Shown here one piece after another: positions 3,213-39,799 of a DNA stretch of 39,799 nucleotides. Each line of letters starts with the position of its first letter. Position 1 is the stretch's first letter. Where the stretch lies: positions 1-39,799 of the IMG/VR virus record IMGVR_UViG_3300010233_000088; one strand, written 5' to 3'. The position numbers and the translations under genes are program-made. Below the pieces are notes generated by a model. It saw only the letters and a list, made by a program, of their open reading frames with translations. It searched no databases and was not told the origin of the DNA. The stretch comes from a virus.

Positions 3213-3214
3213 AG

Positions 3215-3388: not shown

Positions 3389-3398
3389 TTTTATCTCC

Positions 3399-12651: not shown

Positions 12652-12682
12652 TCTCTCTCCATTCCTTTAACAATGCCGTTGA

Positions 12683-13118: not shown

Positions 13119-13140
13119 ACCCCTCCTTTAACAATGCCGT

Positions 13141-14590: not shown

Positions 14591-14923
14591 TTAGTCAGCG
14601 ACCTTCCTTGTCAAATCCGTCATATAATCATATTCACGGGCTTTATCAATCTCCCAAATGCCAGGTTCTAAAGTTATATTGTCATGGCGTTCCTTAATTG
14701 CACAATAAACTTCCGTAGGAACATCATTTTTGAGCCATAATACACCATTAGAGTCTTCGAATAACTCAACACCTTCTTTGGCTTCCAGTAGGTGAAAATT
14801 CCCAGATGTTTCCGAATCTGCCAAACGGTAGCATCCCTTATCGAATAATTTTACCTTCTTTAATCCTTCTGGTAATTTACAAGATTTCATTAACAAACAT
14901 TCTCCATGATAATAAGTTTTCAT
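14591..14923 (-). CDS. Conserved-type small phage protein paired with the repeat protein
   Basis: 110 residues. Pattern YYHGECLLMKSCKLPEGLKKVK...LADSETSGNFHLLE...GIWEIDKAREYD...RKVAD fits a beta-barrel-like family that usually reads QGDvLl...LPxG...GExTGHxHxl...pGxYxvxrqREYxpexxRxVxD and is often encoded next to DUF6745-type proteins, as here. Start ATG forms ATGA with the stop of the repeat protein and is preceded by GGAGGGCAT. Function of the family is not known to me. Confidence 0.75.
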   Translation of the reverse strand: MKTYYHGECLLMKSCKLPEGLKKVKLFDKGCYRLADSETSGNFHLLEAKEGVELFEDSNGVLWLKNDVPTEVYCAIKERHDNITLEPGIWEIDKAREYDYMTDLTRKVAD

Positions 14924-16182
14924 TTTATGCCCTCCAAGTGGATGGTACGGTTATTTGCTCTATATTTTAAAGCTTCTTCAATAGTTTTGCAAGATGGGTC
15001 AACACCTTCGAAATGATAATTCCCTGTAGTTAAATTCTTCATTTTTAAGAATACCGCCCTCTTACGATTAAATATTGAACCCATATTATAAAGCTCATAT
15101 TCCGAATCAACGTACCAACGATTATTATTGTATTTAGCGTCACAAATCTTTGTGCCTAGTGACAACATTCTTTGAATGCCGTATTTTCGTATGAATTGCG
15201 CCTTAACGTCTGCATTTGATTCTTTCTTGAAAAATTCAATATCTAATTCACTTTCAGGAGTTTTTGATAAATAATCAGGGACTTTTACACCATTAAGAAA
15301 ACTCATCCCATACCCATCTGAATATTTAACTGCAAGATCACCGTCTTTATGCAATATTCCATTATCCCAGTGTATTTCAGTCGGTTTTTCGGATATAAAA
15401 CAAATATTTTTGTATGGAATTATAAAATTAACCTCTGAACTAAAATTAACAAATAAATCATACTTATCATTGTCAAATTCAACTCCTATTGATTTCCCAT
15501 ATTCATACCAACCACACGAAATTAACCAAAATATTCCTAAATACCAATTTGAATTAATTGATTTTAATATTTCATTATTTGGTTGGCTGTCCAACTGGTT
15601 GTACAACTGGCTGGACAACTGGTTGGACAACTGGCTGTCCAACTGGCTGTACAACTGGCTGTACAACTGGTTGTACAACTGGCTGGACAACTGGCTGGAC
15701 AACTGTCTGGACAACTGGCTGGACAACTGGCTGGACAACTGGCTGGACAACTGTCTGGACAACTGGCTGGACAACTGGTTGTACAACTGGCTGTACAACT
15801 GGTTGTACAACTGGCTGTCCAACTGGCTGTACAACTGGCTGGACAACTGGTTGGACAACTGGCTGTCCAACTGGCTGTACAACTGGCTGTACAACTGGTT
15901 GTACAACTGGCTGTCCAACTGGTTGTACAACTTTTTAAGCAAATCCTTATCTTCTTTAATCAACTTAAAAAACAATTCACACAATAAAATCGTATTCATT
16001 GGACTAAATCCAAATATTATTAATGGTTGTTCTAGTCCCATTGACTTATAAAGTTTTCCCGTGTATTCAATAGCCTTTTTGTGAACCATTGGCTTTGAAG
16101 CTATGCCAACCCATTTTTCTATTGTCTTAGGAATTTGTAGTTCTTGTTTTTTTGTTAATTTAGTTATTATTCTGGGATTCAT
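14920..16182 (-). CDS. DUF6745-like protein with about thirty 4-residue repeats
   Basis: 420 residues. Residues 1-82 are helical; about 83-201 are an uninterrupted array of Q-L-x-(S/N) units with x = Tyr, Ser, Asp or Arg; then a domain with EIHWDNGILHKDGDLAVKY...GYGMSFLNGVKVPDYL and a C-terminal strand TTGNYHFEGVDPSCKTIEEALKYR. The latter two blocks match the LHxxDGPAVxxxDG...G..VP and VPPxxxTxxEAlaW features of DUF6745 proteins, which also carry Q-hydrophobic repeats. The repeat encodes a long regular helix or solenoid. Overlaps HNH upstream and the 110-residue gene downstream by ATGA. Function unknown. Confidence 0.8.
   Translation of the reverse strand: MNPRIITKLTKKQELQIPKTIEKWVGIASKPMVHKKAIEYTGKLYKSMGLEQPLIIFGFSPMNTILLCELFFKLIKEDKDLLKKLYNQLDSQLYNQLYSQLYSQLDSQLSNQLSSQLYSQLDSQLYNQLYSQLYNQLSSQLSRQLSSQLSSQLSSQLSRQLSSQLSSQLYNQLYSQLYSQLDSQLSNQLSSQLYNQLDSQPNNEILKSINSNWYLGIFWLISCGWYEYGKSIGVEFDNDKYDLFVNFSSEVNFIIPYKNICFISEKPTEIHWDNGILHKDGDLAVKYSDGYGMSFLNGVKVPDYLSKTPESELDIEFFKKESNADVKAQFIRKYGIQRMLSLGTKICDAKYNNNRWYVDSEYELYNMGSIFNRKRAVFLKMKNLTTGNYHFEGVDPSCKTIEEALKYRANNRTIHLEGIK
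15582..15937. repeat. 12-bp minisatellite, about 30 units
   Basis: Units of CAACTGG(C/T)TGTA or CAACTGGCTGGA and CAACTGGCTGTCC-type variants run without interruption, encoding four residues each. Variation is nearly confined to one codon (TAC, TCC, GAC or CGA-type on the coding strand). Unit length 12 keeps the reading frame whatever the copy number. All three plus-strand frames are open here only because the unit lacks stop codons. Confidence 0.95.
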
Positions 16183-25634: not shown

Positions 25635-27270
25635 CTGATTTTTTCTCTGCTTGCTTTTTATAATAATCACTGCTTTTCTGTTTTAATTTCTTTGCCCATT
25701 TAGTAGCTCTTTCTGCTTCATGTTCAAATTTGCTAACAATGGCTTCACCAATAGGTTTGGCTACCTTTGATATTTCTTCTCCAATAGGATTTTCTAATCT
25801 TGGCCTTGTTCCCGGCGGGGTATACTTACTTCCTTCTGGTGCCAAGAAACGATCATCCTCGCTAGAAGATTTCTCTTTTTTAACTTTAAGAATTGCAACT
25901 CCATCATCATCAAACTTAACAACCTGACCAGAATTTCCTGTTTTATTATCAGTTATTACGTCTCCAATCTTATGTTGAACCATTGAAGAGTTTCTTTTAA
26001 CTTTATACGCATCTGTAGCAGTCTTATATGCTTCCGCGGCAGATGAGCCTTGATGTATGGCATTTAAGTAGTCCCCCATAGCTGTGGGATCATTTTTAGT
26101 AGTCATTGCTACAGATTTTGTTCCTGCATCAATAGTTGCTTGAGTAGGGTCAATATCATTTACTCCGGTTGTAGGAAGTTTTTTTGCTCTATCGGCGACT
26201 GCATTAATTAGAATAGAAAGTCTTTCTTCCGTCATTCCTTTTTCTTTAATAGCATCTAATAAATATTTCCCTGCTTCGTCTTTATTCTTGGACAACAAAG
26301 CCTTTTGCGCTGCTTGTGAATATTCAATATTCTCGTCGCTACTTGGTTCGTATTCTCCTCTGGGGTCGGATAATCTCTTGTCTCTTACGGCGATTAAAGA
26401 ATTTTCTAAAACGCTATCACCTTTTGACAATTCTTTTATTTGTTGATTACTTTTCCATCCTTTGTCTTTATTAAAAATATCAGATAATACAGAGACCCTA
26501 TTTTGATAAGTGTTCTCTATGTTTGACTTAACATTATCTGCTATATGAGAATCGACCATCTTTCTTAATTCACTAGAATCTTTTATATCTAGTCCGGCGC
26601 TATCTTCTTTTCTTGGCATTTCACTGATATTCTTGTAATCATCAGGATTTGTTGATTTGTTTCCATCAACTCTTGCTTTTATAATTTCCATTCTTAATTC
26701 TTTCTCTGCTGCTAATGCTTCTTCATCTGTTCCATATATTCCTCTTGAACGCAGAGTCCTTATGCTGCTCATTCTTTTATCATAATCCTCTAAGGCCGCT
26801 GCTTGAGAAACAGGATTGGCTATATTTTGAGCTGCTACAACATTTGCCTGTTTTTCACTTTCCTTAGTTGCCAATATCTGTTTTCCTTTAAACATGTCTT
26901 GAATTTTTATGCTTGTAAGAAAAGCACTATGTTGTATGTCCAATGATGTTTGTTGAGCCACCCCTTGATTAGATATTCCTTTTGTAGCGTCTTCTGATAT
27001 TTTATTAACTGCTTTTATGTGCATTTCTGCGTTTTCAGGATTGGGATCATTTTGTGCAGCAATTTCTTGTTGATAAAGAGACATTTCTGCTGAATTCTTT
27101 GCCTTAGTTTCCTGCATGACATCGTTACGATCACTCCAATCTTGAGTTAGTTTGGTAATCGTATTGGTCATGTTCTGAATGTCCTCGAACGGCGCTGCCG
27201 CTTGATGACGTTCAGGTGGGGTTTGGATATTGATATTTGATGTACTATCGTATGTGGGAAATTTTGGCAT
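25627..27270 (-). CDS. Long helical internal virion protein
   Basis: 547 residues, rich in Glu, Lys, Asp, Gln and Ala with long predicted helices (for example residues 45-75 and 120-215), no membrane segment, and a Lys-rich C-terminus ending KKQAEKKSDE. Position and size match T7 gp15-type internal proteins. ATG at 27270 follows the preceding stop TAA directly. Confidence 0.68.
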   Translation of the reverse strand: MPKFPTYDSTSNINIQTPPERHQAAAPFEDIQNMTNTITKLTQDWSDRNDVMQETKAKNSAEMSLYQQEIAAQNDPNPENAEMHIKAVNKISEDATKGISNQGVAQQTSLDIQHSAFLTSIKIQDMFKGKQILATKESEKQANVVAAQNIANPVSQAAALEDYDKRMSSIRTLRSRGIYGTDEEALAAEKELRMEIIKARVDGNKSTNPDDYKNISEMPRKEDSAGLDIKDSSELRKMVDSHIADNVKSNIENTYQNRVSVLSDIFNKDKGWKSNQQIKELSKGDSVLENSLIAVRDKRLSDPRGEYEPSSDENIEYSQAAQKALLSKNKDEAGKYLLDAIKEKGMTEERLSILINAVADRAKKLPTTGVNDIDPTQATIDAGTKSVAMTTKNDPTAMGDYLNAIHQGSSAAEAYKTATDAYKVKRNSSMVQHKIGDVITDNKTGNSGQVVKFDDDGVAILKVKKEKSSSEDDRFLAPEGSKYTPPGTRPRLENPIGEEISKVAKPIGEAIVSKFEHEAERATKWAKKLKQKSSDYYKKQAEKKSDE

Positions 27271-27271
27271 A

Positions 27272-27733
27272 TTAGCTCAAGTTTAATGATTTTTTATTAT
27301 ACATTCCATATTGTGAAACACCTGTGAGCAAGTCTGAAAAAGCGCTGGAAACTCCGGAGAACATATCGTTTGACGCTTGTTGCTTTAACATCTTGGCCCG
27401 GTCGGTAGCAGAATTTATTCCCATTGTCGTGTTGTATTGGGCGATCGCCTTATCCGTTTCTATTTGAGTCTGATTATTGACCATGACTGCGGCAACGCTT
27501 CCGGTAGGATCAAGTCCTGCGGCCCCGGCCACAGCAGTAGACTTGGCCGCCATCTCTCCGCCTTGGGTCGTTAATTGACCTTGCTGGATGTTTCCTTGAA
27601 CCTGTGTTTGTTGCGCCTGTAAAGTAGATAACGTAGAATTGTATTTATCTTCTGCACTCGTAGCAATTCCTTGTCCGATGCTAGTTATCCCCTTAACTGC
27701 GCTGAGTGCTAATAAAGCCCCGCTAAAACCCAT
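27272..27733 (-). CDS. T7 gp14-like small internal virion protein
   Basis: 153 residues from the ATG at 27733, seven bases after GAGG; a TTG six codons upstream is less likely. N-terminus MGFSGALLALSAVKGITSIGQGI is an Ala/Gly-rich hydrophobic helix, followed by Gln/Thr-rich helices and AATDRAKMLKQQASNDMFS-like segments. This is the order found in T7 gp14 and in many podovirus internal proteins, directly after the nozzle gene. Confidence 0.75.
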   Translation of the reverse strand: MGFSGALLALSAVKGITSIGQGIATSAEDKYNSTLSTLQAQQTQVQGNIQQGQLTTQGGEMAAKSTAVAGAAGLDPTGSVAAVMVNNQTQIETDKAIAQYNTTMGINSATDRAKMLKQQASNDMFSGVSSAFSDLLTGVSQYGMYNKKSLNLS

Positions 27734-27740
27734 ATATGCC

Positions 27741-30056
27741 TCACTTATCAAACGTCGATATAGTTGTCGTTAAACTCAAAATTTCTACTGGGAAAGGATC
27801 TGTATTTTGAATCAATACTTGTGACCCATAACGGTAATCATCCTGAAATGTGATATTAGGTAATATGCCCGTATACAAAGGAGGCGGCGTCCCCATAATT
27901 GTTGACGGTAATCTTGCTTGCGCAATAAACTGTGTTCCGGTAGTACCACTTAACAGAAAACCCGTGTAAGAATTATTCAGTTTAAAAGAGATGTTATTAA
28001 TTCGTTGCTTCTTGCCCTGCGCAGTTCCCTCTGGGTCTGGTGTTTCCTGTGGTAAGGTCAGAATGGTTTGCGTTGCTTGAAGCCCAACGGTCACGACATA
28101 ATAATTGCTTCCTAAAGTTATCGCGCCATTAGAAACTACCTTAGAAGGATAATCAACTCCGCCATCCGCATTGACAACTACCGTTTGAGCTTCTAACCAA
28201 GTAATTCCTGAAATCTTCGTTACTGAAATTCCCCAACTTTGTGCGGAATAACTTGTCGCAGAGAAATTTGAAGTCGAAGTACCTACAATTATCGTGCTTG
28301 AGGTATACCCCGTGATGGTGATTTCCCCTAACATGTTGTCATATGCATCCACCGCACGTAATCTATTACCTACTTGGCTTGCTGAAAAATATGCGGCAGA
28401 GGAAGTAACAACGATCGTGCCTGCCGTTGCACTTAAGCTTATCGAAGTTGATGATGTGGCTGTGAAGGCACTGTAAGTCAATCCAGAGTGGACATAAAAT
28501 AATTGGTCTTGTTGGATTGCTGTTGAGTTGCCTTGCGTTGGCAAAAGTTGGCTTTGATACCTTTCAATGTAATTTACTTGGGAACCGTTTATGGTTCTTA
28601 AAACCATGACCCACACCTCATCATACGGGCCGCTCTGTGATGGAATAATAGCGATTGAAGAAAAACTTCCCGAGGTAACTTGGCGTGACCACGCCTGTAC
28701 TTTCTGGTCAATCTCACGGGTCATGGTAGCCAGCGTGCCGTTAGAGCATAAACACCAAAGCACGGTATCTGGATTCTGTTGATAACCTATATCAATAAAC
28801 CCACCACCCGCCACTTGAGGGGATAAGATTGTTCGGTCGGTAGATTGATAAAGTGATTGCAAAAACTGAAAGGTTATTTCCCTTAATTTTTGCTGGCCCC
28901 TTTGAATATAATAAGCGAAATTTCCTATCTTTTTAGGGATGATAGGCTCAGATCCCCAGCTGGTCTGTTGAATAACACCCACGTTAGAAGGGGTTATGGC
29001 ATTACCTGTTCCTATCCCTGCGGTAATACAAAACTCCCCCCCATAGGTACCAACGATTAAATCATTCATGGGGACAAGCCATTTGATATCGTTTCCTTGT
29101 GTGGCAGATAACTGTAGATTAAGCGCGTCATCATCTGCGCCACCGTTGACAGCGTAATTGGTAAAATTAAAAGTCGCAGACCCCCATACTGTTTGAGGTT
29201 CACTAGATGTTCTGGCAAAGAAAAGCCTGCCTTGGTAGAAACAACAGCACGAAGGATACCCACGCACAGCAGACCAAGACCCTTCTGCCCAAGTAGTTGT
29301 CGCTGCGGTCGTAGTTAGAGTCTGGTAAACAGTGGCCGCGGCAGTTGAAGGATTTGTTACCGTAGTTATCTGCACACATCCTTGAATAGCCAGACCCGTT
29401 GTGGCGCTTGTAATTGTAGACCCAATAGACCACCAAGTGCCGTTGTGTCCGGTTGTAGTGGCACTTGAAACCGTGAATATGTTTCCACTGGCACTTAGAG
29501 TCGTTGAAGCCCCGGAAGCAGAAGCGCTTGATTGCAGAGTCGTTAAAGTAAGATTACCCGGCATGAACGGGCCGCCTGTGAAAGCAAACGCCGCCAAAGC
29601 CCAGTTAGCAGAGGCGTTTCTGGTTAAAGTGTTTATCGTGTATTGCCCTTGTGTCAGATAAACTACATCGTGGTTTTGGCAGTATTGAATGGTAGAAATG
29701 CTTGGTGCGGCATAGCTGTTTGTAAGCGTGTAAGGAGTTGTACCGGTTGAAACGACCACCGCGCCATTTGTATAAAATCTAAAGTTCCCTGCGCCTACTT
29801 CAATGATATATGAATCTGTTACAGAAAACTGAAAAGGAATTATCCTTGCACCCGTAAGGGTCGTTGATCCACCTGTAAGAGCTTGGTTAATAAACTGTAG
29901 CCCGGGCGTTGAAATAATAGAACCGAAAGGACGGATAAGCCAATTTACAATTATCGCGCAAGCTTGTTTGTATTGGTCTATATCCGTCCTTCCGTTCAAT
30001 GAAGGCCCGAACTCACCTCCAACAAAAGAGGTTTGTATTGTGTCAATCTTTTGCAT
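27741..30056 (-). CDS. Tail tubular protein B (nozzle, T7 gp12-like)
   Basis: 771 residues. N-terminus TSFVGGEFGPSLNGRTDIDQYKQACAIIVNWLIRPFGSIISTPGLQFI is the diagnostic start of the gp12/nozzle family (sFxGGExxPxLxgRxDlxxYxxg...N...pxGgxxxrPG). The remainder is Ser/Thr-rich beta structure with EVWVMVLRTINGSQVNYIERY and a C-terminal propeller-like region. Forms the distal tail tube in the mature virion. AAGGAT precedes the ATG. Confidence 0.93.
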   Translation of the reverse strand: MQKIDTIQTSFVGGEFGPSLNGRTDIDQYKQACAIIVNWLIRPFGSIISTPGLQFINQALTGGSTTLTGARIIPFQFSVTDSYIIEVGAGNFRFYTNGAVVVSTGTTPYTLTNSYAAPSISTIQYCQNHDVVYLTQGQYTINTLTRNASANWALAAFAFTGGPFMPGNLTLTTLQSSASASGASTTLSASGNIFTVSSATTTGHNGTWWSIGSTITSATTGLAIQGCVQITTVTNPSTAAATVYQTLTTTAATTTWAEGSWSAVRGYPSCCCFYQGRLFFARTSSEPQTVWGSATFNFTNYAVNGGADDDALNLQLSATQGNDIKWLVPMNDLIVGTYGGEFCITAGIGTGNAITPSNVGVIQQTSWGSEPIIPKKIGNFAYYIQRGQQKLREITFQFLQSLYQSTDRTILSPQVAGGGFIDIGYQQNPDTVLWCLCSNGTLATMTREIDQKVQAWSRQVTSGSFSSIAIIPSQSGPYDEVWVMVLRTINGSQVNYIERYQSQLLPTQGNSTAIQQDQLFYVHSGLTYSAFTATSSTSISLSATAGTIVVTSSAAYFSASQVGNRLRAVDAYDNMLGEITITGYTSSTIIVGTSTSNFSATSYSAQSWGISVTKISGITWLEAQTVVVNADGGVDYPSKVVSNGAITLGSNYYVVTVGLQATQTILTLPQETPDPEGTAQGKKQRINNISFKLNNSYTGFLLSGTTGTQFIAQARLPSTIMGTPPPLYTGILPNITFQDDYRYGSQVLIQNTDPFPVEILSLTTTISTFDK

Positions 30057-30062
30057 AAATCC

Positions 30063-30650
30063 TTATGCGGTATTGCCCGCAGATACCGGAACATTAGAAA
30101 GAGCTTTTTCAAGTCCTGCAACCGCGCTTGATACAGCAACGAAAATACCGTCAACTACCGGATGGCCTGTTAAGAACGTCCCAACAGAAGGAATAGTCGC
30201 GGCTGTTGTTACCCCTGCGGCTACGGTAGCCAAAGCAGTTTTCCAGATACGTTGCCACACCGTACCTGCGATTGTTGGGGCTGTTTGACTTGCGGCTGTG
30301 AACATACCCGAGAATATTGAAGCCACATCCTGAATCACCCCGTTAGCCGCCATACTTGACTGTGCGGCTGTAGCCACCGGAGCGCCACCGTTTTTGCGTA
30401 TATTTGACCCACGTTGCCACGTAAACCAGATACCTGCTAAGAAGGTCACTGCCGCTCCTATGGGGGCCGCAAAAGGCACTGGAAGCGAAGCAACGGTATT
30501 CCCAATGACTGCGCCTTGAGCGTTTGGTGACACTTCATTGACCGCCAAGGGAGTTGAAGAACCTACCTGATAATCACTGACCGCCTGTTTGGTTGCCGCG
30601 CAACCTACCAACAAAGCCCCTAAGACAACAATTAAATAAACACTTTTCAT
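30063..30650 (-). CDS. Lipoprotein with internal membrane segments, possible lysis or exclusion protein
   Basis: 195 residues. Signal peptide MKSVYLIVVLGALLVGC with lipobox LVGC (lipidated Cys17). A hydrophobic segment at about residues 60-78 (PFAAPIGAAVTFLAGIWFTW) and a C-terminal Ala/Val/Thr-rich region that could form two more helices. Strong GGAGGGGA ribosome site. It follows a holin-like gene and another lipoprotein gene, so a lysis function (spanin-like) is the first guess, superinfection exclusion the second. Confidence 0.65.
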   Translation of the reverse strand: MKSVYLIVVLGALLVGCAATKQAVSDYQVGSSTPLAVNEVSPNAQGAVIGNTVASLPVPFAAPIGAAVTFLAGIWFTWQRGSNIRKNGGAPVATAAQSSMAANGVIQDVASIFSGMFTAASQTAPTIAGTVWQRIWKTALATVAAGVTTAATIPSVGTFLTGHPVVDGIFVAVSSAVAGLEKALSNVPVSAGNTA

Positions 30651-30659
30651 AATCCCCTC

Positions 30660-30905
30660 CTATTTGTGAAATATTGCTATTAAAGAAACTCCTACCACTT
30701 GAAGCGTGCTGATTATCCCAACTCCAATCCAAACTAACCTATTGACACTTTTGAAATTCCCCTCATCATCTACTTTATGAGTTTCAAAACTCACCATATG
30801 GGAAACTAACTTATCACTTATATTCTTAACTCTTTCGTCTATCCTTGCTAGAATAACGTCATTAGATTCAATACCTTTGTCGGACGCTCTGCGCTGTTCA
30901 CTCAT
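30660..30905 (-). CDS. Small coiled-coil plus C-terminal membrane helix protein (XhlA/holin-like)
   Basis: 81 residues from the ATG at 30905, which overlaps the upstream stop (ATGA). A charged coiled coil (DVILARIDERVKNISDKLVSHMVSFETHKVDDEG) is followed by one membrane helix (LVWIGVGIISTLQVVGVSLIAIF) and ends HK. This is the layout of XhlA-type haemolysin-associated phage proteins that accompany holins. Good candidate for the membrane lesion step of lysis. Confidence 0.72.
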   Translation of the reverse strand: MSEQRRASDKGIESNDVILARIDERVKNISDKLVSHMVSFETHKVDDEGNFKSVNRLVWIGVGIISTLQVVGVSLIAIFHK

Positions 30906-31135
30906 TTCTCGTTCCCCCATTTGATAAGATATTGCATGGCTGCCTCGCAATCCGCTATACACGTTAAACTACTAGACGCTGAACATTCCTTGACACATTC
31001 TGGGTTCGCTTTGCTTGCGACCGTTGGGTCGTTTGGTACGGTTGCTGGTATCGTTGTGCAACCTGTTAAAAATATGGTGAGTAGCCACCCTTGCGCGTTG
31101 CATCGCACTGCCCTATTGTTAGACAAGGCTCTCAC
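30902..31135 (-). CDS. Small Cys-rich lipoprotein, possible outer-membrane spanin
   Basis: 77 residues from a GTG at 31135. Signal region WLLTIFLTGCTT with lipobox LTGC; the mature part has CVKEC and CIADC (four further Cys), ending in an acidic/basic helix. Size and lipobox resemble outer-membrane spanins, though these are usually proline-rich. The start is uncertain because no good ATG is in frame. Overlaps the holin-like gene by 4 nt. Confidence 0.6.
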   Translation of the reverse strand: MRALSNNRAVRCNAQGWLLTIFLTGCTTIPATVPNDPTVASKANPECVKECSASSSLTCIADCEAAMQYLIKWGNEK

Positions 31136-31372
31136 CTAAATAATCGACTTTACTGAAGTTTGTAACGTCGTATTGGCTAATACCTGTAAATTAGAAGCCT
31201 GTGTTACTACAGCGTTCATATTGTCAACATCTGACTGAATCTTTGAAAGTATGGTTGCTTGCGTATCTTGTAATGTAAAATTATATGTTTGCTGTATGTT
31301 ATTTGAGAATTGAACACTAACAACAATGAGATTTCCTTGAGCTAAAATGCTTTGTATAATTGCGGTTATCAT
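31136..31372 (-). CDS. 78-residue structural-type small protein
   Basis: ATG at 31372 forms ATGA with the beta-helix protein stop and follows GGGGGGATC. The sequence (MITAIIQSILAQGNLIVVSV..., then a helical SKIQSDVDNMNAVVTQASNL) suggests a beta hairpin followed by a helix, as in small trimeric fibre or chaperone-like proteins. No family recognised. Confidence 0.6.
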   Translation of the reverse strand: MITAIIQSILAQGNLIVVSVQFSNNIQQTYNFTLQDTQATILSKIQSDVDNMNAVVTQASNLQVLANTTLQTSVKSII

Positions 31373-32598
31373 AGATCCCCCCACCATCCTGTTTTAAGAT
31401 TCATAATTCCATTTGTAATTGCAGGGCCACTGCTGGCATAATAAAAAGCGCCAATATCCCATGCACCAGTTGCTTGACGGGTTGCGCCTGTAATATCTGT
31501 TGTAAACGTGCCAGATTCGTTTGTTCCTGCCAAAATTAAAGAAGAACCGCTGACAAGATTAAAATTTTCGCTTCCTGAAGTTACGTTGTTGAATGTGGCT
31601 GTAGTGTATGGAATATTTTGTAATCCAGTAGAACCAGTAGTATCATTAGAAGCAGAAGTTGTTAAGGTATTAGTACCAGATGCCGTATTATTATACGCCG
31701 CTCCCGAAGAAGAATATGAAGCATAACAATTTTTCAGAACAGAAGTAATACCTGATCCAGATGTTAATATCCCTTCTGCTGAACCGCCAATAATAATACA
31801 ATTATAAAAATAAGATGTTGAGGTGGCAGCTATCATTGCGATAGCTCCCACATTCCCACCATAAAACAAGCAGTTAATGAAAGTTTGCGTCATTGTATTC
31901 CCGCTACCAGCGCTATCAAGTCTTGCTGTAAACCGTCCTCCTCTAAAAATACAATTTTCTACAATTAACCCGTTTGCTGTTGCTGTTGAGTTAGTTCTTA
32001 TTGCCGCTGCATTTCCAGAGGCAGGAGTATTTGTATTTATAATTTGTAAATTATTAAGAGTAACATTTTGTGTATTTATATCCAATATGCCGTCAGAAGC
32101 ATTAGACCCTGATAAGACGTAATAAGATGTGTTCCAGATACCCGTGGTATTTTTAGCTGACCCCGATGTGGATATAACAACATTATTAGAAGACGATGTT
32201 GTAATGTTGACAATATTTACTGCCGTTGTATCTGCACTAGCCCATGTTCCACTAATAACAATATTCAAATATGGGCTTGCCCCCGCATCCCCTAACGTCA
32301 CATAATTTGTCCCCAAAGTCTCATAAACAATCTCACCACTCTGGAATGTTCCAGTTATTGATTTAATTAAAATCTGACCATTTACCGACGAAGCATGAAC
32401 GCAAGTACCAGTCGCTCCTGATGTTACTCCTGTTACTGCGGTATTATCTGACATTGTTCCAGTTATGCCCCCACTGATGGCAAAGACTTTAGTTGCGGCG
32501 GATGTGAGATCAATAGTGCCACACGCAGTAAATATCCCTTGTAAGGTTGTATAATCTCCACCACTAGGGGCCACGCTAACATTGAAAGCTGTTGCCAT
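31369..32598 (-). CDS. Right-handed beta-helix surface protein
   Basis: 409 residues. After an N-terminal GGDYTTLQGIFTAC segment, residues about 120-330 show repeated N-x-x-I/V turns (VTLNNLQIINTN, LIVENCIFRGG, TFINCLFYGG, YFYNCIIIGGSAEG, SVLKNCYAS) typical of pectate-lyase-like parallel beta-helices, and the C-terminus DITGATRQATGAWDIGAFYY is the capping motif of such proteins. Likely a head fibre or tail appendage binding surface polysaccharide. Enzymatic residues not identifiable by eye. Confidence 0.8.
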   Translation of the reverse strand: MATAFNVSVAPSGGDYTTLQGIFTACGTIDLTSAATKVFAISGGITGTMSDNTAVTGVTSGATGTCVHASSVNGQILIKSITGTFQSGEIVYETLGTNYVTLGDAGASPYLNIVISGTWASADTTAVNIVNITTSSSNNVVISTSGSAKNTTGIWNTSYYVLSGSNASDGILDINTQNVTLNNLQIINTNTPASGNAAAIRTNSTATANGLIVENCIFRGGRFTARLDSAGSGNTMTQTFINCLFYGGNVGAIAMIAATSTSYFYNCIIIGGSAEGILTSGSGITSVLKNCYASYSSSGAAYNNTASGTNTLTTSASNDTTGSTGLQNIPYTTATFNNVTSGSENFNLVSGSSLILAGTNESGTFTTDITGATRQATGAWDIGAFYYASSGPAITNGIMNLKTGWWGDL

Positions 32599-32599
32599 A

Positions 32600-33439
32600 T
32601 TATGCCGCCACGTAATAGGTTGCTAAAATACTTATCGTTCCCGTTGAAGCCACGGTGAAAACAAAATTAGTTGAAGCTGGTAATTTAATAGGTGTCTGTT
32701 GAGGAATAGGATAAACCATCCCGCCGTTGGCTGCAAAGTATAAAGTCGGTATATAAATAGCTGTTGTCGTCGGAGCAGTTGATCCTGTTGCATATCCTAA
32801 GTATATTGTCCCTGCTGTCAGTCCATTGCTAATGACTAACGAAGTAACGTAAATAGAATTACTTGCAGTAGAAGGAATTACTACCCCCGTCCCTGCTGTT
32901 GTTGCTGTTGCATTAGCCGTTGAGAAGCTCGGAGCAATAACCAATGAAACTGAACCTGTGACAACGGGCGTACTGATAACTGTAACTGAACCCGTAATAG
33001 CCTGCGTTGAAGAAGTCGGAAGCGGGCCAATGATAGTCACGCTTCCAGTTATAGAAGGCATTGATGCTATGGTGGTGCTTCCAGTAATCGTTACCGTACC
33101 GATCGTAATAGCAACAACCGTAACGCTTCCCGTTATAGTTACCGTGTTTAGGACAGACACGCTTCCAGTAACCGTTGGCATTGAAAGGATAGAAGTAGAA
33201 CCTGTTATGGTTACAGTCCCCAAAATAGTAGTTGACCCAGTGATCGTCACCGTGCCTAAAATAGTTGTTGACCCCGTGACAGGCATAGGATTGGCACTAG
33301 AAATATCCCCACTGTCAACGTCGTAAGTTCCCAAAGCAACCTTGACCCTTTGCAAAAGTGTCGCAGATCCGGAAACTGTTATATTCTCTGCCGCAACGTT
33401 TATCGTTGAACCCGTGTCTATTGATACGTTATCCGCCAT
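32600..33439 (-). CDS. Repetitive beta protein with ITGS repeats (decoration/fibre)
   Basis: 279 residues. Residues about 50-165 contain around ten irregular repeats of the form (T/S)ITGS(T/V)(T/S)I-L-G-TV, each about 10-14 residues. The last about 100 residues form a compact beta domain (IYVTSLVISNGLTAGTIYLGY...). Such repeats suggest a shaft ending in a knob. Encoded beside the beta-helix protein, with AGGAGAA before the ATG. Probably exposed on the virion. Confidence 0.7.
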   Translation of the reverse strand: MADNVSIDTGSTINVAAENITVSGSATLLQRVKVALGTYDVDSGDISSANPMPVTGSTTILGTVTITGSTTILGTVTITGSTSILSMPTVTGSVSVLNTVTITGSVTVVAITIGTVTITGSTTIASMPSITGSVTIIGPLPTSSTQAITGSVTVISTPVVTGSVSLVIAPSFSTANATATTAGTGVVIPSTASNSIYVTSLVISNGLTAGTIYLGYATGSTAPTTTAIYIPTLYFAANGGMVYPIPQQTPIKLPASTNFVFTVASTGTISILATYYVAA

Positions 33440-33448
33440 AATATTCTC

Positions 33449-33718
33449 CTATGTCAATGCAACCCTTACTGTAGAATTCTCATTTGTCCGGTAGCTGAAT
33501 TTATAAGTCAATGTTATCGAACCTCCACTACCAGGATGAGTTAAAGATAATAACAAACCTAAAGCTTTACCTCCGCCGCTCACACCACTCCCTGATTGTG
33601 TCTTAAGCACCCAAGCATCGCCAGGGTTAGGAGATGCTGGATCAACGGAGTATTCAGGTATCACTCCTATTTCATCAAGCTTCGAGGTTATAGGATTAAA
33701 AGTAAGTTGAGTAATCAT
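33449..33718 (-). CDS. 89-residue small virion protein
   Basis: Contains PASPNPGDAWVLKT, a short motif seen at the N-termini of phage tail and fibre proteins, then a Gly/Ser linker (SGSGVSGGG) and a beta C-terminus (GSITLTYKFSYRTNENSTVRVAL). Start forms ATGA with the previous gene. Role in decoration or fibre attachment inferred. Confidence 0.6.
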   Translation of the reverse strand: MITQLTFNPITSKLDEIGVIPEYSVDPASPNPGDAWVLKTQSGSGVSGGGKALGLLLSLTHPGSGGSITLTYKFSYRTNENSTVRVALT

Positions 33719-34005
33719 GTCCTTACCACCGAAATAATATTGCTTCCTGAATAACTCAACGTAAGTGTTGCTATTAAAGTTCCGCTAACCCCTCCAACCA
33801 GATAATAAACGCTTGATATCAAACCGGACGAGTAACTTATGACGATTGAATCATACGCCGGTATATCAAGACCTTCCGAGATCAACAACGCCCCACTCGA
33901 CGTTACAATCAAAGGAAAAGCAACTTCATCATTTGCGTTTTCTTTTGCGTGTAAGACGATAGGAGCCGCGTCAACTGCGCTGAATAACTTACGTTGTATC
34001 GTCAT
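33715..34005 (-). CDS. 96-residue beta-rich virion protein
   Basis: ATG at 34005 (MTIQRKLFSAVDAAP) is chosen because it overlaps the stop of an 11-codon leader frame (ATGA) that has a strong AGGAGG site. The frame is open 38 codons further up to an ATG at 34119, but that part lies within the tail-tube gene and has no ribosome site. The chain is beta-rich (YDSIVISYSSGLISSVYYLVGG, TLIATLTLSYSG). Function unknown, in the virion module. Confidence 0.6.
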   Translation of the reverse strand: MTIQRKLFSAVDAAPIVLHAKENANDEVAFPLIVTSSGALLISEGLDIPAYDSIVISYSSGLISSVYYLVGGVSGTLIATLTLSYSGSNIISVVRT

Positions 34006-34037
34006 GGCGTAATATAATAAAGAGCCGTTATCCCCAT
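34002..34037 (-). CDS. 11-codon leader peptide ahead of the 96-residue gene
   Basis: AGGAGGG (34047-34041) is placed four bases before ATG at 34037-34035; the frame reads MGITALYYITP and stops at TGA overlapping the next ATG. The strong ribosome site has no other in-frame use, since the downstream gene is in another frame. Looks like a translation-entry or coupling leader. A leader-based attenuation role is speculative. Confidence 0.5.
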   Translation of the reverse strand: MGITALYYITP

Positions 34038-34045
34038 AAACCCTC

Positions 34046-34675
34046 CTATTGTGCGACCGCTCCCATTGATGGGTCGTAATATCCGTCGTTATAATATTTA
34101 GAATTTGTCCAAGCGCCATCCTTGGGGACTTGCTGGACTCCTGTTTGTGAATTAGCTGACTTGGCTTTGGGCAAAGTTACAGTTTCATATTTCTTAATGA
34201 AAGCTTCCGCGATCTGCGCTGAGTTTATAATCATATAAGCTATATCCGAACAAAGCTTGTCAATGAAAGCGTCAAGGAAATAACTTGGATAGTCGTTAGG
34301 ATTGTCGTCGTAGAATGTATAAAATATTCCAAGATTAACTGTGTCTGAAATTAACAAACCACTTTCTTCTCGTATCTTTGCATTGGTTGGATTGGTTGCC
34401 CATATCCTTATACAATTTGAAGGAATTTGATAAACCACCACTTCACTTGGCATTAAAAAGGCAGGGTAATTCGTTGAAGACGACGCCACAACGGATGGCT
34501 TAGAACGTACAGTACAAAAGTTCCATTTACATTCTGAAAGGATGGACTGTAAAGAAAGTTCGTAAACGTTATTCAAAGCGATAGCATTAGGAGAGTTGTC
34601 ATTGATTGAAACAACCGTTTGCGCTCCGCATAACACCAAAGCTTTATTAAGTAACGCTGTCTGTGAGTTTGCCAT
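34046..34675 (-). CDS. Tail tubular protein A (adaptor, T7 gp11-like)
   Basis: 209 residues. N-terminus LLNKALVLCGAQTVVSINDNSPNAIALNNVYELSLQSILSECKWNF, then MPSEVVVYQIPSNCIRIW and DAFIDKLCSDIAYMI, all characteristic of the gp11 adaptor family (helical, with the aLxxLGaxxixxlxDxsxxA start and xYxxPxdclxI). Forms the ring between portal and nozzle. Encoded in the expected place between capsid-type genes and the nozzle. AAGGA precedes ATG. Confidence 0.92.
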   Translation of the reverse strand: MANSQTALLNKALVLCGAQTVVSINDNSPNAIALNNVYELSLQSILSECKWNFCTVRSKPSVVASSSTNYPAFLMPSEVVVYQIPSNCIRIWATNPTNAKIREESGLLISDTVNLGIFYTFYDDNPNDYPSYFLDAFIDKLCSDIAYMIINSAQIAEAFIKKYETVTLPKAKSANSQTGVQQVPKDGAWTNSKYYNDGYYDPSMGAVAQ

Positions 34676-34681
34676 ATGTCC

Positions 34682-34729
34682 TTTAGGGGGCTACTAAGCG
34701 GAAAGGAATACGCTGTTCGCCCCCTTAAA
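34682..34729 (-). promoter_or_regulatory. Strong intercistronic hairpin between decoration and adaptor genes
   Basis: TTTAGGGGGC (34682-34691) and GCCCCCTTAAA (34719-34729) pair over about nine bases with one bulge around a 27-base loop, in the mRNA just upstream of the adaptor ribosome site. No U-run follows, so it is not a classical terminator. It could be an RNase III-type processing site or a partial stop that lowers tail-gene expression below that of capsid genes. Confidence 0.6.
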
Positions 34730-34730
34730 A

Positions 34731-35255
34731 CTAGGTATAACGGATAATGGTCTGAATCGTTCCAGATGTCGGAGCGGTTAACGCTAAGCTCAGCGACAAG
34801 TAAATAGGATGATTCGTATACGTCAAGATTGTCCCGCCAGAAACAGACGAGGTCGAAGACGTTGTGACGAAGTTCTGACCCAATATGTTATTTATACTAA
34901 CCTTGTTCAAATACGTCAACGTGCCTCCCGAGCTTGCTGGCCCGCCAACTACATAAGCTGTTGAGTTTGAGATCAACAAGCTTGTGGAATAAGAAGGCCC
35001 CACGTTAATGGCACAATTCGTAGGAGCAAAAGTTATCGGAAGGATAACCTCACAACCCACAATCTTCTTATTGGCTGGAACGATACCGATACATAATGTA
35101 TCGGCTGTGGTCATTAAAGCCGCAGATGCTGTATTGAATACATAAGAATCAATCCATACCTTTTCAACGGCCCTAACATAACCATCACCGATCAGGTTAT
35201 CTCCTGAACCCCCTAAATTATAGAGAGCCACGTTTGTTGCGTTATAATTAACCAT
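34731..35255 (-). CDS. 174-residue protein directly after capsid gene, likely head decoration protein
   Basis: Beta-rich, Ser/Thr/Gly-rich chain with few charges (VRAVEKVWIDSYVFNTAS, KIVGCEVILPITF, THPIYLSLSLAL). Directly downstream of the major capsid gene with a strong AAGGAG site, and followed by a hairpin; this is where head decoration or minor capsid proteins are usually encoded. No family recognised by sequence. Confidence 0.65.
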   Translation of the reverse strand: MVNYNATNVALYNLGGSGDNLIGDGYVRAVEKVWIDSYVFNTASAALMTTADTLCIGIVPANKKIVGCEVILPITFAPTNCAINVGPSYSTSLLISNSTAYVVGGPASSGGTLTYLNKVSINNILGQNFVTTSSTSSVSGGTILTYTNHPIYLSLSLALTAPTSGTIQTIIRYT

Positions 35256-35257
35256 TT

Positions 35258-35285
35258 TAATCTCCTTGCCGGTACTCTGCCGGCT
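35258..35285 (-). promoter_or_regulatory. Short hairpin ahead of the 174-residue gene
   Basis: GCCGG-CAGAGTA-CCGGC on the minus strand forms a five-base-pair stem immediately before the AAGGAG ribosome site. No U-run. May stabilise or process the transcript between capsid and decoration genes. Confidence 0.4.
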
Positions 35286-35290
35286 GTTTA

Positions 35291-35974
35291 TTATCCTTCG
35301 TTCATAATTACGACGCGTGACTCTTCAAGACGCACGGCGCCGATGTTTAGTTCATAATACACTTGCCAAGAATACGACAAGTCGGTACGTTCATCCGTAC
35401 GCACATACGGAGCATCAGCCATTGCCATGCAAATACCAAAGCGTTGGTAAGCAACTCCGATAAGTGTTGAGGATGAAGCCGCCGCGATACGAGTGGACAT
35501 AATCCACTTGAAGCCTAGGAATGAATCAATCTCTCCACGCACTAACGATTTGACCGAGTTATAATCGCTCGATGTAAAGGCTGTAGTGTTTAAGAGATTA
35601 TCCAAGGCATCCGGTCGGATGCAGATAAACCGGTCTTCCATCTCCACATCATTAACGTCAAAGACTTGCTTGACAGCTAAGATACGAGCAAGTGTCATTG
35701 AAGCTGACGACATGAGGGTGATGTTTCCTGCGGTGGTAGTACCAGTACCCGTTTCACCTGTGTACGCTGTACCAAGTAAACCGTTCTGTAAGATGGTGTC
35801 ATCCATCTGACGGCCTAAAGACTGTGCCGCCGCAATCGTATAAGCACTACGAGGGTCAGAGATTACCTTCAACTCGTCTGTCCTGTCCAACATACGGTTG
35901 TCGTTGTAATCAATCATCAGACCCATACGACGACCTAAAACGGGGTCGTTATTTGGTGTTTGTGAGTTACGACC
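35291..35974 (-). CDS. Major capsid protein, C-terminal 227 codons (gene split by rearranged joint)
   Basis: In-frame from GGT at 35974, reading GRNSQTPNNDPVLGRRMG and then LMIDYNDNRMLDRTDELKVISDPRSAYTIAAAQSLGRQMDD. The first 18 residues equal the last 18 of the partial gene at 39575-39799, so the full protein is 284 residues. The pattern fits the phage major capsid family of podoviruses (DxxD...dpxsxyxxaxAxxlgRxxDd, then GEIDSFLGFKWIMSTRI). The residues MHLV that precede this in an open frame come from reading the inverted portal sequence and are artefactual. Confidence 0.85.
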   Translation of the reverse strand, partial: GRNSQTPNNDPVLGRRMGLMIDYNDNRMLDRTDELKVISDPRSAYTIAAAQSLGRQMDDTILQNGLLGTAYTGETGTGTTTAGNITLMSSASMTLARILAVKQVFDVNDVEMEDRFICIRPDALDNLLNTTAFTSSDYNSVKSLVRGEIDSFLGFKWIMSTRIAAASSSTLIGVAYQRFGICMAMADAPYVRTDERTDLSYSWQVYYELNIGAVRLEESRVVIMNEG

Positions 35975-35975
35975 T
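35921..35975. repeat. 55-bp inverted copy of 39745-39799
   Basis: Exact reverse complement of the last 55 bases of the window. Together with the 33-bp match of bases 1-33 to 35972-36004, it defines how the genome closes. The two matches overlap by only ACCT (35972-35975), the junction microhomology. Confidence 0.92.
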
Positions 35976-37609
35976 ACAAGATGCATAAGGGTTTAAGGTC
36001 TAACTTTGAAAGCTATTGGCAGAGTTTACATGATTATTACTATATTGAAGCTGAGGACATAAACACGACTTATTATCCTGGGACTGAGTTAAACGCGGCG
36101 TGTTTATATGACTCGACCACGCTTGAAGCGGCTGACGTCTTAGCTTCGGGTTTTATGAATTACCTAACACCTCCTACGAGCAAGTGGTTTGGTTTGACAC
36201 CGAAGAACCCTAAAAACAGAGATAACAAAACAATCTGCAAATTCTTGGAGGACTGTACTGATGAAGTCAATTACGCGCTTAATAAATCAAATTTCTACAA
36301 CCAGATCATTGCGTCGTATAAAAGCTCAGGGGTCTACGGAACCTCGTGCATCATCGAAGAAGAAGACGTTGAAGATGATATACGATTTAACTCCCTCGCT
36401 ATCAAGAACATTGTCCTTGTAGAAGATGGGAGAGGTCGGGTTGTCCAGTATTTTATAGAGTTTGAGTATACCGCAAGGCAAGCAGAGAGCAAATGGGGGC
36501 GTGAGAATCTTCCCGATGCTTTACAGAAAGAGTTAGAAAGCGGAAATGAGAAAGCCAATAAGCACTTATTTTTGCTTTACATAGCCAAGCGCAGTAACCG
36601 AGAAGTCCAAAAGACTGACAAGAAGAACATGCCTGTTGAAGCGGTTTGGTTAGACCAAGAGAATAGGCAGATAATTGATGAGAGCGGATATAACGAGTTT
36701 CCTGCTTTTTGCCATCGCTTTGATAAAAGGCCATCCATTGTATGGGGATTCAGCCCTGGCATGAAGACATTACCTTTCGCCCGTATCTTAAACGCGGTGG
36801 CAAAGACTAATTTAAGGGCAATGATGAAGCTGACTGATCCTCCTATAGCGGTTCCTGATGATGCTTTCATAATGCCTTTTGACATGAATCCAAGGGCTTA
36901 TAACGTTTATAACAAGAAAGCTATGGACAGGGGAGCGGCTGACATCTTCGCTTTCGGTAATTACGGCAACCCTGAAGTTGGCATGAAAGCTTTGGAGTAT
37001 TACACCACTCGAGTTAAAGCGATGATGTATAACGATGTTTTTATAGCTTTTGACAATATAACTAAGCAAATGAACAACCCTGAAGTCATGGAGCGAATTA
37101 ATGAGAAAATGACCATGTTAGGGCCTGCGGTTGGCAGGTATATATCTGAGATGCTTAATCCGGTAATCATTCGAACCTTGGGCATCCTAGCGCGAAGGGG
37201 ACGTCTTCCAAAGCCACCTGTTGAGTTCTTAATGGAACCAGAGTATGAGATTGATTGTGTAAGCCAGTTGGCACAGGCACAGCGTAGAAGTGAGTTAAAT
37301 AGCTTAGTAAGTGGATTGACGATCGTTGCCCAGATGGCCCAAGTAAGTCCACAGGTTACAGACTGTGTTGATCCTGACAAGGTAGTTAATGAGGTTTGGG
37401 CTATTACTGGTGCTCCTGACAGGGTGTTGAGGGATGATGCAGAAGTAGCTAAGTTGCGTGAGGTAAGAGGGCAGATGGCTAAACAACAGCATGATATGGA
37501 GATGGCTTCAAAGGGAGCGCAGACTGTCAAGGATGGTTCACAGGTCGACCTCAACGTTGCTAAGGCCAAAGCACATACAGGTATCGTGCCAACATCGAGG
37601 GCGCAATGA
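35972..37609 (+). CDS. Portal (head-to-tail connector) protein, residues 23-567 of 567
   Basis: Reads in frame from ACC at 35972; an internal ATG at 35981 gives 542 residues, but the real start is at bases 99-97 on the minus strand. Features of the T7 gp8/Head-tail_con family: FESYWQSLHDYYYI, DSTTLEAADVLASGFMNYLTPPTSKWFGL, YKSSGVYGTSCI, GRVVQYFIEFEYTARQ, KRPSIVWGFSPGMKTLPFARILN and a charged helical C-terminus. Forms the 12-mer DNA gate at the capsid vertex. Stop overlaps the next start (ATGA). Confidence 0.93.
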   Translation, partial: TYKMHKGLRSNFESYWQSLHDYYYIEAEDINTTYYPGTELNAACLYDSTTLEAADVLASGFMNYLTPPTSKWFGLTPKNPKNRDNKTICKFLEDCTDEVNYALNKSNFYNQIIASYKSSGVYGTSCIIEEEDVEDDIRFNSLAIKNIVLVEDGRGRVVQYFIEFEYTARQAESKWGRENLPDALQKELESGNEKANKHLFLLYIAKRSNREVQKTDKKNMPVEAVWLDQENRQIIDESGYNEFPAFCHRFDKRPSIVWGFSPGMKTLPFARILNAVAKTNLRAMMKLTDPPIAVPDDAFIMPFDMNPRAYNVYNKKAMDRGAADIFAFGNYGNPEVGMKALEYYTTRVKAMMYNDVFIAFDNITKQMNNPEVMERINEKMTMLGPAVGRYISEMLNPVIIRTLGILARRGRLPKPPVEFLMEPEYEIDCVSQLAQAQRRSELNSLVSGLTIVAQMAQVSPQVTDCVDPDKVVNEVWAITGAPDRVLRDDAEVAKLREVRGQMAKQQHDMEMASKGAQTVKDGSQVDLNVAKAKAHTGIVPTSRAQ

Positions 37610-37842
37610 TATTAAGCGAAGCCCAAGCATTAAAGAAGAATATGCTTGCTACTTTCGAATCAGCGCATGGCAAAGAAGTGATGAAGTTTATTAAGAGGAT
37701 AGGAAATTATTATTGCACGGTTTACGATTCAGGCGATACAAATGAGATCATCGCAAGGGACGCGAATAGAAGACTGATACAGACCTTGGAGTCTATAATT
37801 AACTTAACGCCGGAACAGATTGTAAAACTAACGGAGGAATGA
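37606..37842 (+). CDS. Bbp19-like small phage protein
   Basis: 78 residues: LATFESAHGKEVMKFIKRIGNYYCTVYD...NEIIARDANRRLIQTLESIINLTPEQI. Matches the small family next to portal genes in many podoviruses, in which F-x-x-x-G-x-x-vL-x-x-L and an (E/D)-x3-x3-(G/A)-(R/N)R-x-(L/V) segment recur. Start ATG forms ATGA with the portal stop. Role unknown, presumably head assembly. Confidence 0.78.
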   Translation: MILSEAQALKKNMLATFESAHGKEVMKFIKRIGNYYCTVYDSGDTNEIIARDANRRLIQTLESIINLTPEQIVKLTEE

Positions 37843-37843
37843 T

Positions 37844-38164
37844 ATGGCTAATCTTTTAAACTCAACTGGTGATCCAATAGCACCAACATACGGCACTGGT
37901 GCGGTATCTATTATGTCTGGTATCAATTTACAAGAAACAGGTGTAAACAGTACGGTAGGGGATTTCTTAAACGATAGCGCGGCTCCCGGGCAACCTAATG
38001 GGTATGTAAATAATTTTACCAGTTATGGTTCAAGCGGAATGAATAGGGTTGGTGGTTACAATAGTGGATGGGCTAATGGCTGTTTAAGTCATCAAGGTCT
38101 TGGAGTTCCTCCAACATATTCAAGCGGTTTGTTATCTTTCGGAAATACTGGAAGGCAAGCATGA
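37844..38164 (+). CDS. Gly/Asn-rich small protein, paralogue of the next gene
   Basis: 106 residues, no charged clusters, rich in Gly, Asn and Ser. The segment PGQPNGYVNNF...GYNSGWANGCLS...PTYSSGLLSFGNTGRQA recurs in the following gene, so the two arose by tandem duplication. Between portal and scaffold in the head module. AGGAATGAT precedes the ATG. Unrecognised family; probably a minor head protein. Confidence 0.65.
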   Translation: MANLLNSTGDPIAPTYGTGAVSIMSGINLQETGVNSTVGDFLNDSAAPGQPNGYVNNFTSYGSSGMNRVGGYNSGWANGCLSHQGLGVPPTYSSGLLSFGNTGRQA

Positions 38165-38424
38165 GCTTAACAAGTTCTGCCAGCGATCCTACTTGTCCTA
38201 CGTATGCGTCTGGAACATGGTCATTGATGAATGGTTCAGCAGTGCTTTCAAATAATAATGACTGCGCTCAACCGGGACAGCCGAATGGATATTACAATAC
38301 TTTTCCTACATTAACAGTTGGTTCTTTCAATGCGGGATGGACTAATGGAGATTTAACACAAACAGTACAGCCAGTGTATAGGAATGGTTTAAATTCTTTT
38401 GGGAATACTGGCTTACAATCCTAG
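38161..38424 (+). CDS. Gly/Asn-rich small protein, paralogue of 37844-38164
   Basis: 87 residues. Shares PGQPNGYYNTF, (S/N)xGWxNGxL, PVYRNGLNSFGNTGLQS with its neighbour; both end FGNTG(R/L)Q(A/S). The start overlaps the preceding stop (ATGA). Contains two Cys (PTCPTY, NDCAQP). Function unknown. Confidence 0.65.
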   Translation: MSLTSSASDPTCPTYASGTWSLMNGSAVLSNNNDCAQPGQPNGYYNTFPTLTVGSFNAGWTNGDLTQTVQPVYRNGLNSFGNTGLQS

Positions 38425-38433
38425 GAGGGAGTT

Positions 38434-38508
38434 ATGAGCAAGACAGGACGTACAGGTCACAGGGTAAAAATTAAGATACCAACCAATCCAAGACAACCAA
38501 ACGGTTAA
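38434..38508 (+). CDS. 24-residue basic peptide
   Basis: ATG three bases after AGGAGGGAGTT, coding MSKTGRTGHRVKIKIPTNPR then QPNG and a TAA stop. Very basic, with no acidic residues. The strong ribosome site and the fit between two genes support translation, but the size makes it uncertain. A DNA-binding or scaffold-associated role would be a guess. Confidence 0.45.
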   Translation: MSKTGRTGHRVKIKIPTNPRQPNG

Positions 38509-38522
38509 GAAAGAAGGAAAAA

Positions 38523-39431
38523 ATGGATAATCTAATTCGAAAGAATTACGACCCAGCAGTGATTGACGATAAGGGAGCGGCGGTCGCTACTGCTACAGGG
38601 TTAGAAGCAGGGGCAGTAAGCGGAGGTGCAGGAGCCGCAGGCGCAACAGCATGGAAAACAAGTATCAGCAATCCTGATCTGCGTAATTCATTAAGCAAGT
38701 TTGATGATACTCCAGATGGGATTGGAAAGCTTGCGGAGAGTTACAATAACCTTGAAAAACTTTTAGGTCACGAGAAAGTCCCCATACCTAAAGACATCAA
38801 TGATGTTGAAGGATGGAATAGGTTAAGCAAAGCTCTGGGAGTTCCTGACAAAGCCGAAGGGTATGGGTTAGCTGACGCATCTATCCCAGCCGACTTAGCT
38901 AAAATGGGGTTGACTTTAAACAAGAACGAGTTTGCAGAAGTCATGCACGCCCATAAAGTCCCACCAGCCGCAGTGAAAGGTATTTGGGATGTGTACCAAA
39001 AGAAAGCCATTGATTCTTATTCTCAAGCCATGAAGCAACACCAAGAACAGTTGACCAAGACTATAAATACTTTACGCGGTGAATGGGGAGATTCTTACGA
39101 AACCAACGTGGAGTTAGGACAGATGGTTATTAACAAGTTTTCCACAGGCCAAGAAATGAACGATAAGATCACTGCGATGCTTTCAAAAGACCCTGATGGT
39201 ATTAAGTTCTTAGCTAAGGTTGGAGAGCAGTTCGCAGAGAACAAGGTTCCTGAGTTCCAAATGAAAAGGTTTAGCTTAGCTCCAGAGGAAGCAATGGAGG
39301 AAGTCCGCAAGATCACAATGGATATGGACGGCCCGTATATGAACATGAAGGGCAAGTTCACAGCCAAAGAACACGAAGCGGCAATAGACCGAGTGAACCA
39401 TTTACTTGGAGTTTCACAAAAAAGAGGATAA
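38523..39431 (+). CDS. Scaffolding (capsid assembly) protein
   Basis: 302 residues. After an Ala/Gly-rich N-terminus, IGKLAESYNNLEKLLGHEKVPIPKDINDVEGWNRLSKALGVPDKAEGYGL is the common podovirus scaffold pattern (vpxP...ew..l...LGxPxxxxxYxl). The C-terminal half is helical and charged with many Glu and Lys. Encoded directly before the capsid gene. AAAGGAAAAA precedes the ATG. Confidence 0.88.
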   Translation: MDNLIRKNYDPAVIDDKGAAVATATGLEAGAVSGGAGAAGATAWKTSISNPDLRNSLSKFDDTPDGIGKLAESYNNLEKLLGHEKVPIPKDINDVEGWNRLSKALGVPDKAEGYGLADASIPADLAKMGLTLNKNEFAEVMHAHKVPPAAVKGIWDVYQKKAIDSYSQAMKQHQEQLTKTINTLRGEWGDSYETNVELGQMVINKFSTGQEMNDKITAMLSKDPDGIKFLAKVGEQFAENKVPEFQMKRFSLAPEEAMEEVRKITMDMDGPYMNMKGKFTAKEHEAAIDRVNHLLGVSQKRG

Positions 39432-39574
39432 GCGTTAAGCCCCTCAAATAGTTTTGTAGTGTCGACAAGCGAAAGCCCGGCAAATGCAGTAAAGCTGGAA
39501 GCAACGACCCCTTTTTGGGACAATCGAAACGACCGCTTCAATCGTTAACGCAGTTCTAAAAAGGGGAATTTCAA
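39432..39574 (+). promoter_or_regulatory. Structured 5' leader of the capsid gene
   Basis: 143 bases with no gene. It holds a GCGAAAGC mini-hairpin, a CCGGC...GCTGG stem (about 39477-39498), a CCC-TTTTT-GGG stem, and flanking GCGTTAA (39432-) and TTAACGC (-39551) that could close the whole element. AGGGGA at about 39562-39567 is the capsid ribosome site. Likely a stabilising or regulatory mRNA leader for a highly expressed gene; a promoter could also be inside. Confidence 0.5.
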
Positions 39575-39799
39575 ATGGCAGACACACAAGCCGCAATTTT
39601 CGCCCAAGCCTATAGTCAGAATATCATGCAGTTAGCGGAGCAGAAATATTCTAAGCTCTATAATACCGTTTACATGAAGCCCAATGTACGGGGCAAGGCT
39701 TTCTTCCAAGACCAAATCGGTCAATGGGCAATGAGCATCAAAGCAGGTCGTAACTCACAAACACCAAATAACGACCCCGTTTTAGGTCGTCGTATGGGT
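39575..39799 (+). CDS. Major capsid protein, N-terminal 75 codons, cut by window edge
   Basis: ATG at 39575, eight bases after AGGGGA. Reads MADTQAAIFAQAYSQNIMQL, AEQKYSKLYNTV and FFQDQIGQWAMSIKAGRN and runs open to the last base. The final 18 codons are repeated (inverted) at 35974-35921, where the gene continues. The QxxsxLxxxvxxxxxxGxxxxxxxig pattern is the normal N-terminus of podovirus major capsid proteins. Confidence 0.85.
   Translation, partial: MADTQAAIFAQAYSQNIMQLAEQKYSKLYNTVYMKPNVRGKAFFQDQIGQWAMSIKAGRNSQTPNNDPVLGRRMG
39745..39799. repeat. 55-bp inverted copy of 35921-35975
   Basis: Last 55 bases of the window, exact reverse complement of 35921-35975 in the capsid gene. Marks the right-hand closing overlap of the rearranged block. 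Confidence 0.92.

Follow-up and report, generated by a model that had tools for sequence, protein, structure and literature searches.

An inverted portal-to-capsid block in an IMG/VR phage record is probably a misassembly around a fold-back chimeric joint

In the virus record IMGVR_UViG_3300010233_000088, nearly all of the long genes are on the minus strand, the exception being a block at positions 35972-39799, in which the portal gene, three small genes, a gene in the scaffold position and codons 1-75 of the capsid gene are on the plus strand. This raises the question of whether the head genes of this phage are really inverted or whether an ordinary gene order is hidden by an artefact, as the preliminary description had proposed. 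The window, i.e. the stretch analysed here, is the whole IMG/VR record of 39,799 bases. Very probably, this record represents an ordinary tailed phage of about 39.7 kb, with its main genes all on one strand, that was misarranged in assembly around a chimeric capsid-portal joint, which probably arose by fold-back template switching in vitro.

Each end of the contig has an inverted internal copy (Table 1). The matches that had been described were recovered as exact, 33 and 55 nt long and meeting at the ACCT microhomology, and the internal 84 bases at this point consist of both contig ends, inverted and fused on 4 common bases. The next-best inverted repeats in the window were 20-27 nt long with 74-85% complementarity, and none of those listed exceeded 27 nt or 85%, therefore exact matches of 33 and 55 nt are far beyond chance.

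Table 1. Positions of the inverted end matches, the interrupted head genes and the repeated leaders in the window.
Feature	Position	Strand	Remark
a, left contig end	1..33	+	portal-side, through native portal joint; exact reverse complement of 35972-36004
Portal, first codons, at opposite contig end	1..99	-	start codon 99-97 by coordinate arithmetic
18-nt leaders	12663-12680, 12856-12873, 13124-13141, 13314-13331, 13582-13599, 13852-13869	genes on -	
Major capsid protein, remainder (phrog_3437)	35291..35986	-	false start created by joint
b, capsid sequence as far as false joint	35921..35975	+	exact reverse complement of 39745-39799
ACCT, 4-base microhomology	35972..35975		at false joint; overlap of two internal copies
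a', inverted copy of 1-33	35972..36004	+	at false joint; opens inverted block
Portal / head-tail adaptor (phrog_332), codons 26-567	35981..37609	+	within inverted block
Inverted block, unique interior (3,740 bp)	36005..39744	+	
Scaffold-position gene (phrog_3742 unknown function; weak phrog_458 protease)	38523..39431	+	within inverted block
Major capsid protein, first 75 codons	39575..39799	+	cut by contig end
b', right contig end	39745..39799	+	crosses native capsid joint by 55 bases

When the block is undone, the portal (567 aa) and the capsid (284 aa) each read locally in a single frame across the native joints, in agreement with the earlier prediction of complete genes, and the arithmetic of the collinear length is sound, 39,799 - (33+55-4) = 39,715. 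The two overlaps are different sequences, each of which is needed only once in the collinear order. The claim that both genes are cut as given was correct for the capsid gene, which is truly split, but the portal gene is short of only its first 25 codons, and an internal ATG opens the other 542. The circular genome that had been proposed holds at the level of the assembly only; the DNA packaged in the virion may be either permuted or linear with terminal repeats. Portal, capsid and tail proteins homologous to those of HTVC010P-type podoviruses, with their T7-like head and tail, are present (phrog_332, phrog_3437, phrog_394 and phrog_376), and no tRNA genes were found in the window.

The native order was sought in 42 loci that encode a related portal, of which 39 came from IMG/VR and two from MAG contigs; the remaining one, L116, was the only relative found when the tail tubular B protein was used as the query. 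Several of these loci are nearly identical and belong to a single phage recovered in different samples. The portal alignment crosses the break in 39 of the 42 loci and begins at a contig edge in the other three. Capsid matches were present in 32 loci, in 30 of which a single alignment crosses the break, the other two being truncated at the end of the contig. In every locus with both genes (32/32), portal and capsid were on a common strand, with no inverted arrangement among them, and TerL was upstream on the same strand in all 32 loci that hold TerL. In the nearest relative (L043, 29,922 bp; portal 86-87%), the genes of the window follow the order expected once the block is turned back, all on one strand. 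Two further relatives, of 39,724 and 40,584 bp, are both collinear at the portal-capsid region, and their ends overlap directly by 123 and 127 bases, giving circles of about 39.6 and 40.5 kb that resemble in size the 39,715 bp expected for the window's phage. In the longer of the two (G005), some long frames are on the opposite strand, therefore strict one-strandedness is not universal in this family.

A related portal was also found in 178 phage records. Megablast of positions 27000-39799 against phage records gave no match. In exact-pattern scans of IMG/VR, neither the given joint nor either native joint was present in any contig (0, 0 and 0), a result of little weight because the collection may omit the window's own or very near records. 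The collinear order of TerL, portal, capsid and tail tubular genes on one strand was found in the relatives and across the local joints, not in the deposited record. The relatives settle the native order of the portal-capsid region, and the proposal of an artefact hiding a collinear order is backed by the 42 relative loci, the two relatives of about 40 kb and the phage HTVC010P.

The arrangement is very probably explained by a chimeric joint at the 4-base microhomology, by which the capsid gene is fused to portal-gene sequence of the opposite strand, from 3.8 kb away. The joint probably came about by fold-back template switching while the DNA was amplified or the library prepared, and the origin of the chimera was probably in vitro. 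Such a joint would make the portal-to-capsid block a loop in the assembly graph that could be walked in either direction; if the assembler took the loop backwards and halted at the branch points, inverted end overlaps of 33 and 55 bases would result. In the chimera counts reported in PMC1855051, 85% of 475 MDA chimeras were inverted, most with short complementarity, and the commonest class was inverted with partners less than 10 kb apart (337/475). Among 200,000 random inverted joints in the present sequence, 1.9% had a microhomology of at least 4 bases, which is mild support for priming at the microhomology. The earlier attribution to amplification template switching fits the published MDA class, but other sources of chimeric DNA would look alike.

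It had also been pointed out that 33 and 55 are common assembler k sizes. This was borne out, as both values are in the k lists of the JGI metaSPAdes settings published in PMC7171226 and PMC12697132, and a toy graph can yield the pair. The toy de Bruijn graph was made from random DNA without the microhomology, with chimeric reads of more than 56 bases spanning the joint. When the native portal joint was thinly covered, with no k-mers of 56 or more across it, the long unitig started exactly 33 bases before the portal joint, and the two ends of the loop were inverted copies of each other over exactly 55 bases, the values found in the record. If every joint was fully covered, the overlaps were 55 and 55, therefore an overlap of 33 needs the assumption of thin coverage. 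The 127-base end overlap of the G005 record suggests that its last k was 127; if the last k was also 127 here, ends at 33 and 55 need thin coverage. We infer that the assembler was SPAdes.

End overlaps were surveyed in 68 records available over their full length, comprising the window, 62 single loci and five records pieced together, with contigs available only in part excluded. Direct terminal matches were found in three of the 68 and an inverted terminal match in 1 of the 67 other than the window, and a k-sized inverted pair was not seen again among these 67, a rarity that counts against the assembly explanation. The single inverted match is in L040, an IMG/VR contig with a 144-nt inverted copy of its internal positions 5200-5343 at the right end, which is likely a fold-back artefact of the same kind. 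The ends of G005 (40,584 bp; L049:1-310, and L050/L051 near the right end) lie within a short tandem-repeat tract with 15-nt steps, and the 127-nt overlap is inside this repeat.

A gene block flanked by inverted sequence could also be read as a programmed DNA inversion that serves as an on-off switch for the head genes. In a reciprocal inversion, both native joints are lost and two new ones appear in their place. The contig, however, has one inversion joint, both of its ends cross native joints, by 33 and 55 bases, and the reciprocal second joint (39744 to 34) is absent from it. With a single new joint, and ends running through the native joints, this is a non-reciprocal fold-back joint and not an invertible segment. 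The inverted matches are products of this joint and the contig ends, therefore they are not repeats of the collinear genome that a recombinase could use. In addition, the break falls inside two essential genes, no relative is inverted, and no serine or tyrosine recombinase, invertase or integrase family was found in a PHROGs scan covering 50 of the 100 listed ORFs, the other 50 being mostly short overlapping frames. Programmed inversion was rejected because of the non-reciprocal joint and the lack of any inverted relative, and its probability is negligible. A physical genome end within the portal gene was likewise rejected, as 39 of 42 relatives run through this point and the other three start downstream of it at a contig end. 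Four features expected of a fold-back chimera were found: an inverted second segment, partners less than 10 kb apart, short complementarity, and a non-reciprocal joint beside intact native joints.

Two other origins of such a joint can be envisaged. The assembler may have misjoined the sequence by error correction, gap closing or a short spurious overlap, with no chimeric molecule involved; both overlaps are k-sized, and a 4-base overlap taken alone is short enough for an accident. However, de Bruijn assemblers are not known to make joins from as few as 4 bases, and the toy graph that matched the overlaps had been fed chimeric reads of more than 56 bases across the joint, which leaves a pure misjoin improbable. 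Alternatively, the joint could come from a minority of real fold-back molecules that had formed as the phage replicated in infected cells, either through template switching at the microhomology or through aberrant annealing, and were then sequenced. This would be consistent with the Erf-type annealing protein encoded by the phage (16803-17399, minus strand) and with the non-reciprocal joint, as predicted by template switching. Against it, the molecule as assembled is without a whole capsid gene, no such molecule was found in the relatives (0/32 loci holding both genes), and the same product is routine in vitro according to the chimera data of PMC1855051, so that an origin in the cell seems quite unlikely. 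If the joint did exist in real phage DNA from infected cells, through microhomology template switching, it would represent a natural class of defective, snap-back genomes, a prospect to which we attach very little weight. The preferred explanation is still a fold-back joint made in vitro and then misassembled, and the preliminary description was essentially right in seeing an artefact with an ordinary order behind it.

Several other features of this genome were observed. A sugar/glycan cassette at 2646-12225 (minus strand) makes up about a quarter of the genome and contains four GT2 glycosyltransferases, a dTDP-glucose-dehydratase-like epimerase, a radical SAM protein, a UDP-galactopyranose-mutase/amine-oxidase-like flavoprotein and a C-methyltransferase. 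As much of it is kept beside TerL in G001, G002, G003, G005, G010 and L115, the cassette is a trait of the lineage, possibly with a role in glycosylation of the virion or of the host surface. L115 (RXKC01000030.1), closely related (portal identity 68%) and with the same cassette, comes from a MAG labelled Candidatus Saccharibacteria; it is possibly a mis-binned phage contig, or a clue to the host.

Six identical 18-nt leaders, AACGGCATTGTTAAAGGA (minus strand, Shine-Dalgarno included), are located directly before small genes, where 0.09 would be expected at up to 3 mismatches. A single occurrence of a 20-nt form of the leader was found in 116 loci, and this was in L043, the nearest relative. 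These leaders may resemble the start-associated sequences of some mycobacteriophages. Positions 12847-13144 and 13305-13602 form an exact 298-nt direct duplication with a spacing of 458, carrying two identical 81-aa genes, and this could be either a recent duplication or a second spot in the assembly that deserves checking. The ORF at 14920-16182 (minus strand) encodes a product of 420 aa with a DUF6745 domain, and a tandem 12-nt repeat at 15512-16004 within it encodes a long run of SQLY/SQLD/SQLS-type tetrapeptides.

With its split capsid gene and wrong-strand portal, the deposited record would mislead gene calling, synteny and estimates of completeness, and comparisons should instead be based on the collinear order of about 39.7 kb. 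Similar misassemblies in collections of viral contigs can easily be scanned for by their signature, a pair of inverted end matches that converge on a single internal position and whose lengths belong to a k list. A literature search on viral contigs with such inverted misassemblies found no matching paper.

Compared with known systems, the joint shares with the MDA inverted chimeras described by Lasken and Stockwell (2007; PMC1855051) the inverted second segment, partners less than 10 kb apart (3.8 kb here) and short complementarity (4 nt), whereas the joint here is known from an assembled contig and not from reads. The end overlaps resemble the k-sized ones of SPAdes and metaSPAdes contigs in that their lengths are k-list values (33 and 55), as in G005, where the direct overlap is exactly 127. 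They differ from the usual ones in being inverted and of two sizes, which requires a fold-back joint and uneven coverage. Among isolates, the Pelagibacter phage HTVC010P, one of the T7-like podoviruses, has TerL, portal, capsid and tail tubular B in the same order on one strand as the window's phage, and a capsid of 284 aa is found in both (in HTVC010P by its coordinates). The portals are about 33% identical, and the window's phage is about 5 kb longer and, unlike HTVC010P as compared at its positions 1-8857 only, has a long sugar/glycosyltransferase cassette adjoining TerL.
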